A stretch of 35,484 nt of DNA from Kiritimatiellia bacterium (GTDB taxonomy: Bacteria > Verrucomicrobiota > Kiritimatiellia > RFP12 > UBA1067), in NCBI GenBank assembly GCA_024405265.1, contig JAKSOZ010000017.1:1-35484 (forward strand), written 5' to 3'. The translations under genes were made by a program, and so were the position numbers. Below the pieces are notes generated by a model. That model was not told where the DNA came from, searched no databases, and saw only the letters and a program-made list of their open reading frames with translations. Below are positions 1 through 4,147 of this stretch, piece by piece. How positions within the stretch are numbered: position 1 is the stretch's first letter; each line of letters starts with the position of its first letter.

Positions 1-41
1 CGCTTGCGCCTAAACGCTCTCTAGCCGAACCGAAACGCTCT
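1..41. repeat. Left copy of a 41-bp direct repeat found at both window ends
   Basis: Bases 1-41 match 35444-35484 in the same orientation at 40 of 41 positions; base 19 is C here and T in the other copy. The unit contains two ACGCTCT-type words, and a third similar word follows near 55-62. The mismatch argues against a simple assembly overlap of a circular molecule and favours a dispersed intergenic repeat at which the sequence was cut or the assembly stopped. The second part is inference. Confidence 0.85.
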
Positions 42-172
42 CAATCACTCAGCTCAACGCTCAACCTTGCGTCACTAGCCTCACCTACTTCTTCGGTGCG
101 TTTCTTTTGCCGCGCTGCGGCTATTCGCTCCTTTTGCGCTTCTCCTGAACGGAGTAGCTTAGTGGCGCGACC

Positions 173-297
173 CCCGCCGTCAGGCGGCCTCAGGCAAGAG
201 AAGAAATTACGAGAAATTATGGAAAGAAGGTCTGACCATCGTTTTTAAATTTCTCGTAATTTTACGTCTCGTATCTCCCGCCGCTAGGCGGTTCAGG
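173..297. repeat. Repeat block with GC-rich hairpins flanking a 15-bp inverted repeat
   Basis: Two near-copies of a 21-23 base unit of the form CCCGCCG-nnn-GGCGG-TCAGGC lie at 173-195 and 277-297. Each is itself a short hairpin (CCGCC/GGCGG). Between them is a perfect 15-bp inverted repeat, arms 204-218 and 248-262, with a 29-base loop. The whole block can be folded as one imperfect palindrome. It could be a small palindromic repeat element or part of an RNA; nothing identifies which. Confidence 0.65.
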
Positions 298-304
298 CTG
301 GAGA

Positions 305-511
305 GGGACGGAGCGGTGAGTGGCCTACACAGCGACGGCAAGGAAAGCATGCAACGACCCGATTTCGACTACCGGTTTTTCGCCAAGCGAAGCGGGTAAG
401 GCTTGCTAAGGAGCGAAAATGAAAGGTAGCGAAATCGATGTCGACCTTGCTTTCATTGCCGGGAATCGTGAAACGATTCAGCGAGTACAGCTACTCACCG
501 CTGCCGTCCCC
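305..511. repeat. Long imperfect palindrome (about 200-nt hairpin)
   Basis: Successive segments pair in nested order: 305-323 with 491-510 (one bulged base), 337-349 with 448-460 (12 of 13), 360-373 with 425-437 (one bulged base), 377-383 with 413-419 (perfect), and 385-388 with 401-404 near the tip. As RNA this forms a single long rod interrupted by internal loops. That architecture is shared by 6S RNA and by decayed inverted duplications. No family signature was recognised, so function is open. An ATG with a purine-rich AAGGAG upstream at 408-413 falls inside the tip, but the reading frame from it looks random. Confidence 0.6.
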
Positions 512-579
512 CGGAAGCACCTCCGCGTCGCAACAGCTACTCACCGCTTCGTCCCACGGAGGCACCTCATCGTCACAAA
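488..579. repeat. Imperfect 46-bp tandem repeat
   Basis: The unit starting CAGCTACTCACCGCT at 488 recurs at 534, with further matches through CGTCCC, GG-GCACCTC and CGTC. The first unit also supplies the outer right arm of the long palindrome 305-511, so the second unit is an extra copy of that arm. The 46-base period is not a multiple of three, which argues against coding. Confidence 0.65.
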
Positions 580-632
580 AAAAGATTTTTGTCAGACGAA
601 TAGTTAACCTGAGTGAACTTTCGCGAATCGCG

Positions 633-661
633 ACTTCGCCCAATGTTTATCGGGGTGAAGT
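633..661. repeat. Small hairpin
   Basis: ACTTCGCCC at 633-641 is nearly complementary to GGGGTGAAGT at 652-661, leaving a loop of about ten bases. No T-run follows on either side, so it is not an obvious terminator. It lies just upstream of the control region of the gene at 815. Confidence 0.4.
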
Positions 662-689
662 CGAGGTCGATCTCAAAAAGCAGCGGATT

Positions 690-715
690 TTTGCGTCACA
701 AAAATGTGACGCAAA
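690..715. promoter_or_regulatory. Perfect 11-bp palindrome, candidate operator
   Basis: The arms TTTGCGTCACA (690-700) and TGTGACGCAAA (705-715) are exact reverse complements around a 4-base AAAA spacer. A further ATGTGACA half-word follows at 715-722. The centre sits roughly 52 bases upstream of the predicted start of transcription for the gene at 815, a common place for an activator site. No T-run follows, so a terminator is unlikely. The protein that would bind is unknown. Confidence 0.5.
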
Positions 716-739
716 TGTGACACTTGATTTTCCGAAATA

Positions 740-748
740 TGAGATAAT
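740..748 (+). promoter_or_regulatory. Extended -10 promoter for the zinc-ribbon gene
   Basis: TGA-GATAAT at 740-748 is an extended -10 element. No good -35 was found at 17-18 bases; TTGATT at 724-729 is too close. The predicted start of transcription is near 755, inside the palindrome 748-787, which leaves a leader of about 60 bases before the ATG at 815. Confidence 0.45.
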
Positions 749-787
749 ATATGTATACGCTTTTAACACAAAGAAAGTATACATATA
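748..787. promoter_or_regulatory. Perfect 11-bp inverted repeat over the transcription start
   Basis: TATATGTATAC (748-758) and GTATACATATA (777-787) are exact reverse complements separated by 18 bases. The left arm overlaps the end of the -10 element and the likely start site, so a bound repressor would block the promoter. Alternatively the transcript would begin with a hairpin. The two arms lie about 29 bases apart centre to centre, nearly three helical turns, which suits a dimer pair. Confidence 0.5.
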
Positions 788-814
788 AAAGAAGATCAAG
801 AAAGGAAATATACT

Positions 815-1096
815 ATGAACGATAATAATGAAGAGCTGGTTCGACTCGCGAAGGATTTCCTTGCGCTCATTGAGAGGGCTAATAAAATCAACCGGAGCAA
901 GTACAAGGACTATAAGAAGCCTGCAGAGACGAAGAGGAAAGAGCTTCCGTCGGAAGACGAGAATGTGCCGCGTTGTCCGAAGTGTGGGGGCGTGATGGTT
1001 AAGCGTATGGCGAAGAAGGGTCCTATGGCCGGACATCCTTTCTGGGCCTGCACCGGCTATCCGAAGTGTAACGGAACCGCGAAGTGCGAGGAGTAG
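815..1096 (+). CDS. Small protein with a topoisomerase-type C4 zinc ribbon
   Basis: A 93-residue protein. Residues 1-45 are charged and helical-looking. Residues 53-85 carry CPKCGG near 54-59 and a second Cys pair (C-T-G-Y-P-K-C) about 20 residues later, with the G-x-F-W-A-C pattern typical of the zinc ribbons at the C-terminus of bacterial topoisomerase I. Stand-alone copies of this ribbon are known; they are thought to bind single-stranded DNA or to guide nucleases, but the exact job here is unknown. The start ATG has AAAGGAA at 801-807. It lies just before recA, and its stop codon overlaps the recA -35. Elaborate palindromes upstream suggest regulated expression. Confidence 0.85.
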   Translation: MNDNNEELVRLAKDFLALIERANKINRSKYKDYKKPAETKRKELPSEDENVPRCPKCGGVMVKRMAKKGPMAGHPFWACTGYPKCNGTAKCEE

Positions 1097-1123
1097 ACAT
1101 TGCTAGGGGAAATTTGATATAAT
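1094..1123 (+). promoter_or_regulatory. recA promoter
   Basis: TAGACA at 1094-1099 (5 of 6 to the -35 consensus) and TATAAT at 1118-1123 are 18 bases apart. TGA at 1115-1117 makes it an extended -10. The -35 begins with the stop codon TAG of the upstream zinc-ribbon gene. No recognisable LexA operator of the E. coli or Bacillus type was seen between here and the ATG. Confidence 0.8.
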
Positions 1124-1162
1124 AGCGAGACACGATTAAACAACGATCAAGAGGATTTCAGT

Positions 1163-2185
1163 ATGGCAAAAGCGAGCGAAGTCAAGACCGGTAATACTGC
1201 GTTAGACGCGGTAATGAGCCAAATTCGTAAAGAATTCGGCGAGATGTCGATCATGCGTCTTGGCGACAAGCAAGTGCAGGAAATCCCGGTTATCTCGACG
1301 GGAGCGCTCTCGCTTGACCTTGCGCTTGGTGTGGGCGGTCTTCCTCGCGGCAGAATCGTCGAATGCTATGGTCAGGAATCTTCGGGTAAGACGACGCTTG
1401 CTCTTCATGTCGTCGCGAACGCCCAGAAGAACGGCGGCCTCGCCGCGTTCATCGATGCGGAGCATGCCCTTGATCCGAATTATGCGCAGAAAATCGGCGT
1501 TAATCTCGATGATTTGATCGTTTCTCAGCCCAATAGCGGCGAGGAAGCGCTTACGATCTGCGAACAGCTCGTTAAGTCGGGAGCGTTTGACGTAGTGGTC
1601 GTCGACTCGGTCGCGGCGCTTACGCCTCAGGCGGAAATCGACGGAAACATGGGCGACTCGCACATGGGTCTTCAGGCCAGGCTCATGTCGCAGGCGATGC
1701 GTAAGCTTACCGCTACGATCGCGCAGACCAAGACCTTGCTTATTTTCACGAATCAGGTTCGCGACAAAATCGGCGTTATGTTCGGAAACCCCGAGACGAC
1801 GCCCGGCGGCAAGGCGCTTAAGTTCTATGCTTCCTGCCGTCTTCAGGTTCAGCGTATCGGAGCGATTAAGGATACGGCCAACGCGGTCGTCGGTAACCGC
1901 ACGCGAGTCAAGGTCGTGAAGAACAAAGTCGCGCCGCCTTTCACGGAAGCGGAGTTCGATATTCTTTATACCTGCGGTATTTCGTGGGAAGGTTCGGTTC
2001 TCGACGCGGCGCTTAATCGCGGCATTGTCGAGAAGCGCGGCAGTTGGATTTCTTTCGGCGACGAGCAGCTCGCGCAGGGTTCGCTCGGAACCATTCAGTA
2101 TCTTCGTGAGCATCCGGAGATTACGGAGCGAATCGTCGCACGCATCAAGGAAGCGCCGGCGAACGTAGTGACGAAGAAGAAATAA
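1163..2185 (+). CDS. recA: Recombinase RecA
   Basis: 340 residues, the usual RecA size. RecA forms filaments on single-stranded DNA, catalyses strand exchange and triggers LexA self-cleavage where an SOS system exists. Visible motifs are the Walker A loop GQESSGKTT at residues 70-78 (most RecAs have Pro where this has Gln), the catalytic region F-I-D-A-E-H-A-L-D near 97-104, Walker B VVVVD near 144-148, and the conserved T-N-Q-V-R (196-200) and T-T-P-G-G-K-A-L-K (212-220) DNA-binding loop region. The C-terminal tail is basic (V-T-K-K-K) rather than acidic. The start has AGAGGA eight to thirteen bases upstream. The stop codon is immediately followed by a tRNA gene. Confidence 0.98.
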
Positions 2186-2273
<88 letters not shown>

Positions 2274-2302
2274 TTAAGGCGGATTTCAGGTGCATTGTTA
2301 TT

Positions 2303-4147
2303 ATGGCGAATGATTACGCAGACAGTTCGATTAAGACTCTTGACCCGGTAACGCACATCAGAACGCGTCCCGGAATGTACGTCGGTGAGCCCGGTACGGG
2401 CGCGATGTACCACGATTGTATCTATATCCTCATGAAGGAAGTGATCGATAACTCGATAGACGAATTCGTGATGGGCGCGGGAAAGCGCATCGAAGTTACG
2501 GTCAATTACGATACGGGCGAAACTTCCGTTCGAGACTACGGGCGCGGTATTCCGCTCGGCAAGGTCGTCGATTGCGTATCTCAAATGAATACGGGCGGTA
2601 AATTCGATTCCGATTCCTTCCAGTTTTCCGCCGGTATGAACGGCGTTGGCACTAAGGCCGTCAATGCACTTTCGGAGTTTTTCGAAGTCAGGTCCTATCG
2701 CGACGGCGAATTCTCGGAAGCTTATTTCGAAGAAGGGCGCTTGAAAAGTCAGAAGCGCGGCAAAACCAAGACCAGCGAGCGTACGGGTACGTTCATTCGT
2801 TATAAGCCTGACGTCAAGGTCCTCAAGAACTTCAAAGTTCGTGAAGAGCATGTCGTTCGTCGTATGCGCATGTACGCTTACGTCAACGCGGGACTTTCGA
2901 TTACCTTGAACGGGCAGGAGATACTCTCTCAACATGGTCTCGCCGATCTTATCGCCGACGAAGCGCAATTCGAGAAGCTCTATCAGCCGTTTCATATCAA
3001 GACGAAGAACCTTGAGATAATCTTCACTCACACGAATCGTTTCGGCGAAGAGTATTATTCGTTCGTTAACGGTCAGTACACGACCGACGGCGGCACCCAC
3101 TTGACCGCGTTCAAGGAAGCGCTTACGAAGGCGCTTAACGAATACGACCCGAAGAAGAAATTCGATGGTGATGATATTCGCGACGGTCTTATCGGCGCGG
3201 TTTCGATTCGCATCATGAATCCGGTCTTCGAAGGTCAGACCAAGATCAAGTTCGTGATGAACGATATTCGAGCCGAGCTCGTTCAACAGATGAAGAAGGA
3301 GATCGAGACCGCGCTTCATCGTAGTCCCGCCGAAGCGGATAAGCTCATTTCGAAGATCGAGGAAACCGGCAAGATTCGCTCGCAGCTCAATACGATCAAG
3401 AAGCAAGCTCGTGAGCGTAGCCAGGCGACTCAAGTCCGCGTCAAGCAGCTCAAAGACTCGAAGAATCATCTGAAGCTCGATAAGCTCAACAAGAAGACCG
3501 GCAAGGCCGAAGGCGAAGAGACGATGATCTTCTTGACCGAAGGTCAGTCGGCGGGCGGCACCTTGGGTAACGCACGAGACGCGATGAATCAGGCCGTCTT
3601 TTTCCTCCGCGGCAAGCCGCTCAACACTTTCGGCGTCGGCAAGGAAGTCCTCTACAAAAATGAGGAGTTCTTCAACCTCATCAAGACCTTGGATATAGAA
3701 GATACGCTTGAACATCTTCGTTACGGTAAGATCATTTTCGCGACCGATGCCGATGTGGACGGGCTCCACATTCGAATGCTCTTAACGACGTTTTTCATGC
3801 GCTTTTATCGCCAACTTATTCTCGATGGCCGCGTCTTCATTCTGGAGACTCCGCTTTTCCGCGTCAGAAACAAGAAAGAGCAGTATTACTGCTTCTCGGA
3901 AGCGGAGAAACTGGCTGCGGAAAAGAAGTGCGGTAAGCTCTTCGAGACAACGCGCTTCAAGGGCCTCGGTGAACTCAACGCGAAGGAGTTCAAGGACTTC
4001 ATCGGTGAGGATATGCGCTTAACGCCGGTTACTTGCGCGGATGATATCGACGTCGAAAAGACGATCAAGTTCTATATGGGCTCGAATACGCCCGAGCGCA
4101 AGGACTACATTATGGATTCGCTCGTTTGCGACAGCTCGGAGTTCTAA
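2303..4147 (+). CDS. parE: DNA topoisomerase IV subunit B
   Basis: 614 residues, type IIA topoisomerase ATPase subunit. The GHKL ATPase domain shows E46-V-I-D-N50, D-Y-G-R-G-I-P near 78-84 and G-M-N-G-V-G-T-K near 111-118. The TOPRIM domain shows T-E-G-Q-S-A-G-G (most relatives have E-G-D-S-A), [10 protein letters not shown], and near the C-terminus R-F-K-G-L-G-E-L. With ParC it decatenates replicated chromosomes and relaxes supercoils. It lacks the large insertion of proteobacterial GyrB. Pairing and sequence style (see parC) favour topoisomerase IV over gyrase. parC follows three bases after the stop. An AGGTG lies ten bases before the ATG; no promoter was seen, so it may be transcribed from recA through the tRNA. 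Confidence 0.92.

Follow-up and report, generated by a model that had tools for sequence, protein, structure and literature searches.

The window (the whole 35,484-nucleotide stretch analyzed here) carries at positions 305 to 511 a long imperfect hairpin, probably a copy of a miniature, non-autonomous mobile DNA element that is approximately 150 to 280 bp in length and restricted to a single genus of gut Kiritimatiellae. Because the pairing of this hairpin is conserved in the manner of DNA hairpins, unlike that of RNA structures, it most likely represents a miniature mobile element and not a new RNA gene. Our best reading is that it would belong to a new, unusually long and elaborate type of miniature hairpin element comparable to REPINs and ERIC, a kinship that is one of kind, without demonstrated descent.

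A single rod with a conserved core

Folding of both RNA and DNA, compared with shuffled sequences, resolved window positions 305 to 511 as one rod. With short flanks, the RNA fold reaches -120.2 kcal/mol (shuffled mean -82.5, sd 4.5, z -8.5), the reverse strand folded as RNA gives a z of -8.3, and the hairpin folded as DNA has an energy of -66.2 versus -32.4 for shuffled sequences (z -10.1). The initial annotation had described an imperfect hairpin of about 200 nt at these positions, with pairing far above chance, and both statements hold: no RNA or DNA shuffle was as stable as the native hairpin. A side stem-loop at 463 to 479 was missing from that description; in the seed alignment 96.7% of the cells of its helix are paired, and 8 of its 12 pairs have changes on both sides. 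The parts of the element and its immediate surroundings are as follows.

277 to 297, plus strand: short GC-rich palindrome CCGCCGCTAGGCGG, also present 5' of several other copies in this genome (copy comparison)
305 to 324, plus strand: outer stem P1, 5' arm; arm sequence varies among copies with pairing kept (fold)
325 to 335, plus strand: conserved internal-loop or junction segment CTACACAGCGA (copy alignments)
336 to 349, plus strand: stem P2, 5' arm (fold; compensatory changes)
355 to 373, plus strand: conserved core stem P3, 5' arm CGAC-C-CGATTTCG-A-CTACC; near-invariant genus-wide, including the unpaired C opposite AT
374 to 424, plus strand: variable apical stem-loop (stem-loop at about 377 to 420), missing or different in other copies (alignments)
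425 to 443, plus strand: core stem P3, 3' arm GGTAG-CGAAATCG-AT-GTCG; near-invariant
about 448 to 462, plus strand: stem P2, 3' arm (fold; covariation)
463 to 479, plus strand: side stem-loop GAATCGT-GAA-ACGATTC (fold; covariation)
480 to 487, plus strand: conserved junction segment AGCGAGTA (alignment)
about 490 to 511, plus strand: outer stem P1, 3' arm (fold)
533 to 560, plus strand: second copy of the P1 3' arm (ACAGCTACTCACCGCT...), an alternative partner for 305 to 324 (direct repeat D20, inverted repeat I3)

The palindrome at 277 to 297 probably belongs to the repeat unit. The copies share a common architecture, in which a variable outer stem (P1) is followed by a conserved junction, P2, the side stem-loop, the near-invariant core P3 (consensus GCGAC-C-CGATTTYG ... 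CRAAATCG-AT-GTCGC), and a variable apical region. Double changes occupy 91 cells of the seed alignment versus 29 after shuffling and at most 17 with slid partners, and the covariation score is 0.30 versus 0.13 in shuffled alignments and at most 0.11 in slid ones. Taken alone, covariation of this strength would normally count as strong evidence for an RNA.

Copies in the window's genome and across the genus

We searched the assembly to which the window belongs (1.7 Mb in 56 contigs, 77% complete) and recovered 7 full copies together with several truncated ones. A copy on contig C45 matches the window at 98% identity over 315 of 316 bases, and the remainder include several full copies at 76 to 78% identity and many partial ones. 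Several own-genome copies sit at contig ends, where repeats typically fall. Outer stems can be wholly different between copies yet still paired, as in two cases on contig C1 (GGAATGATTCGTT/AACGAATCATTCC and, elsewhere on the same contig, GGATGGCGAG/CTCGCCATC), and three loci (L014, L018, and L020) hold internal-deletion copies that retain the outer stem. The number of copies in this genome and in other genomes of the genus rules out a single-locus RNA gene. An inverted structure within a repeat family, which the initial annotation had offered as its alternative, turns out to be essentially right, with copies both dispersed and multiple.

We scanned a pattern derived from the core over the GTDB contig collection and obtained 37 matching stretches, nearly all of them from ruminant-gut MAGs labelled Kiritimatiellae or Lentisphaerae. 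Matches in Methylosinus (L051) and Muribaculaceae (L070) lacked the other motifs of the family and were set aside as chance. Genome searches with a covariance model trained on 12 divergent copies found the element in 24 of 61 genomes belonging to the window's genus, a ruminant-gut group of Kiritimatiellae, with 1 to 11 matches each, and across a sample of the class just 1 of 108 genera was positive. This patchy presence is as expected for a mobile or frequently lost element. Carriage by phages or plasmids was rejected, with no match to the window copy in plasmid, phage, and viral collections.

Association with an IS4/IS701-like transposon

In genome G004 (locus L042), and again on an independent contig (L049), a transposase gene lies between two outward-facing copies of the hairpin, each within terminal repeats of the transposon (CACCCTTATCCCACTTTT). 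The G004 transposase contains a Pfam DDE_Tnp_1 domain (E 3e-10), and the NCBIfam models nearest to it are IS701 and IS4, both under cut-off. Terminal inverted repeats are shared with the autonomous element in L042/L062, L049, and L068/L077, the last being a two-ended copy with a deletion, and many RGIG6350 copies finish in the same terminal repeat as the transposon.

These observations are what would be expected if the hairpins were remnants of IS4/IS701-like transposon ends, moved by that transposase alone as ordinary MITEs: the hairpin lies inside the terminal repeats at both transposon ends, relatives carry a deleted two-ended copy, and the RGIG6350 copies share the terminus. However, the terminal repeats were not seen at the window copy, at other copies in the window's genome, or at RUG-type or G008 solo copies, and homology among the RUG-type copies stops near the outer stem. 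The window's genome yielded no protein closely related to the IS4-like transposase, but this draft is 77% complete and its contigs break at repeats, and transposon-type repeats are often lost from incomplete assemblies. We therefore regard descent from transposon ends alone as possible but rather unlikely, and note that it narrows the miniature-element explanation without contradicting it, such that the probabilities of the two overlap.

Genomic context and a possible route of spread

Genes were called with a simple amino-acid-composition caller trained on the window, and 0 of 73 copies overlapped a called gene. In the RUG-type species cluster, 31 copies lie between two opposite-strand genes (-,-) versus 3 between same-strand genes (+,+), mostly 12 to 110 nt past a stop codon, whereas copies in the window's genome and in G008 mostly have the opposite orientation and lie after one gene and ahead of the promoter of the following one. 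The hairpin is missing from close species at two comparable orthologous spacers, the first following a gene that we take to be riboflavin-kinase-like from its translated tail and the second following what is presumably pgi; in G066 the hairpin in the post-pgi spacer starts a few bases past the stop codon. Neither a target-site duplication nor a precise end was visible at the solo-copy ends inspected. In comparisons of occupied and empty sites, which included no intact pair with homologous spacers, the spacers were too divergent for a duplication to be read. Clustering of neighboring genes gave the IS4-like transposase as the sole recurrent mobile gene, and a gene partner that travels with solo copies was rejected.

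With respect to mobility, we infer that the element moves through a folded DNA strand and that its core is what is recognized. An enzyme would recognize the hairpin by its conserved core and junction, in DNA that is single-stranded or cruciform, and would move it mostly into spacers just past genes. If only copies with a well-formed hairpin go on spreading, pairing would persist in the lineage from which copies arise, and copies that have settled would decay. Candidate enzymes include the IS4-like transposase, a Y1/RAYT-type enzyme, or some other. A bolder proposal, which we offer tentatively and think more likely wrong than right, is that the family constitutes a class of miniature element not described before, which travels as one folded DNA strand, is recognized via a conserved three-way-junction core rather than its ends, inserts orientation-specifically just past stop codons, and is occasionally captured as an end module by DDE transposons.

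Fixed orientation past stop codons could alternatively reflect a role in transcripts. The hairpin might act as a bidirectional transcription barrier or terminator, or as a stabilizer of mRNA 3' ends, in which case RNA from both strands must fold and G·U and A·C would be penalized alike. This would account for the symmetrical rarity of G·T and A·C documented below, for copies positioned 12 to 110 nt past stop codons, and for IS hairpins, which would shield both ends. We nevertheless consider it improbable: the outer stem lacks a trailing U-run both in the window and in the copy flanks listed, the sites are tandem gene pairs and not convergent ones, the conserved core is far larger than a terminator requires, and the single breaks seen in close copies look unselected. 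The family also provides a concrete setting for two questions: what mobilizes long palindromic repeats in little-studied gut bacteria, and why such repeats settle past stop codons.

Mismatch balance and a probable constraint on DNA

RNA helices accept G·U and do not accept the complementary mismatch A·C, so selection on a single RNA strand should produce an excess of G·U. In the helices of 49 copies we counted 2,891 cells with Watson-Crick pairs, 37 with G·T, and 49 with A·C, which places G·U at about 1% of helix cells, while the positive control, RNase P taken from 30 genomes in this genus, had 2,781, 337, and 47 such cells, respectively. Given that differing insertion orientation among lineages could mask an asymmetry, we redid the count by lineage and oriented to neighboring genes. 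Across 63 copies the lineage-based count was 48 G·T versus 60 A·C, and with copies placed in transcript orientation relative to neighboring genes, G·U numbered 49 and A·C 42 (p = 0.53). G·U did not outnumber A·C significantly on either strand, nor when copies were read in the direction of transcription.

Among copies less than 3% apart, a single change breaks a pair in 12 cases and leaves a wobble in 9, with 0 clean doubles, and pairs of copies more than 25% apart contain 19,828 double changes versus 5,571 single breaks, counts that are mutually non-independent because they are pairwise; changes between distant families are mostly double and Watson-Crick. Single changes in RNase P are mostly wobbles at every comparable distance. 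Judged from these sequence comparisons, the pattern suggests that settled copies decay after insertion and that spreading lineages keep a Watson-Crick hairpin.

The initial annotation had proposed looking for compensatory change in related genomes, and had named a lack of covariation together with scattered DNA copies as evidence against an RNA. Compensatory change is indeed strong and the scattered copies exist, but the covariation is of the DNA kind, without a G·U signature. A structured regulatory or catalytic RNA, whether a cis element or a small RNA transcribed from one strand and conserved for its RNA fold, would fit the very stable fold, the strong compensatory change with conserved unpaired bases, and the orientation fixed relative to neighboring genes in one species cluster. 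We view it as quite improbable all the same, as G·U, whichever strand is read and also in transcript orientation, is not in excess of A·C (the RNase P ratio being 7:1), most genomes of the genus do without the element, and Rfam holds no match. At a permissive threshold, window positions 1 to 1200 returned only chance matches, all below gathering scores, and five other element-bearing loci returned 0 matches at gathering score, in agreement with the earlier remark that no known RNA family was recognizable; 6S or another known RNA was rejected accordingly. The likeness to 6S RNA raised in the initial annotation extends to overall rod shape only, unlike 6S the element is multicopy and patchy, and the reading as a structured RNA of 6S-like shape found no support.

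Arms homogenized by template switching in a functionless palindrome (quasi-palindrome correction) are similarly improbable: covariation is strictly Watson-Crick and strand-symmetric, and two double transitions separate rpsL-adjacent copies in L163 and L165, as such correction would produce, but it fits poorly by itself because the closest copies have single breaks with 0 clean doubles and because internal loops and bulges that correction would erase (the C opposite AT) are kept in aligned copies.

Pipelines for RNA discovery would rate this family a convincing structured RNA from its strong covariation, yet the similar numbers of G·U and A·C mismatches point to a constraint on DNA. Comparison with RNase P provides a simple, general check that separates hairpin mobile DNA from RNA.

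Comparison with known repeat families

Compensatory changes are common across REPIN hairpins, which are predicted to form in single-stranded DNA and for which a GI spacing of 71 bp was reported (PMC3116915). Like REPIN and REP sequences associated with a RAYT (TnpA-REP), the element described here is a dispersed extragenic palindrome with compensatory changes. REPINs are short inverted REP pairs with a variable spacer and conserved ends, whereas this element is variable at its ends and conserved in its inner core and junction, and it is 2 to 4 times longer than the 71-bp REPIN spacing. Y1_Tnp (RAYT) genes occur in 40 of 59 genomes of the genus; the same palindrome was not found beside the ten that we examined, which are flanked by other short palindromes or by none, and a RAYT-linked REP was rejected on this basis.

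The ERIC/RU-1 and YPAL/RU-2 families are intergenic repeats of 127 to 168 bp that form long stable hairpins and are seen as MITE-like, with an unknown transfer mechanism; for ERIC, a TA target duplication has been reported (PMC2759123). Compared by description, the element resembles both as an intergenic repeat with a long stable hairpin and differs from ERIC in its conserved three-way junction core and in that an ERIC-type TA duplication was not seen. As with MITEs of DDE transposons of the IS4/IS701 type, related hairpins lie inside transposon terminal repeats and deleted two-ended copies exist; unlike MITEs, most solo copies, the window's included, are without terminal repeats.

Other repeats and features near the hairpin

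Window positions 285 to 770 are a composite of at least 2 repeats. The composite recurs nearly identically on C45, directly before a gene that we take to be RhuM-like, and the part at about 565 to 750 is also found alone on C36 (L021). Another dispersed repeat of about 250 to 300 bp (L014:560-861) has 24 matches in the window's genome, often at contig ends and upstream of the hairpin; as this is a separate repeat, a link through the sequence upstream of contig-end copies was rejected.

A further palindrome at window positions 199 to 266 has the center GGTCTGACC, and the same center is present at L018 and flanking a Y1_Tnp/RAYT-like gene on contig C2 (L225). From this recurrence it looks like the REP family of that RAYT, with variable arms and a fixed center.

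In G008, loci L127 and L128 hold tandem pairs of elements approximately 400 bp apart, and ahead of each element stands a further palindrome of highly variable sequence (GCTCGCGCTGGAAT...ATTCACAAGCGAGC), with arms that vary between copies and are apparently still paired. Degenerate short tandem arrays of the type GATTAGAGTCGGTTAGGG adjoin several hairpins at RUG-type loci such as L151 to L161.

Finally, an 855-aa open frame on the minus strand (window 1202 to 3769) runs antisense to recA, a tRNA-like stretch after recA, and the start of the next gene and, though long, is most likely an accident of codon usage.
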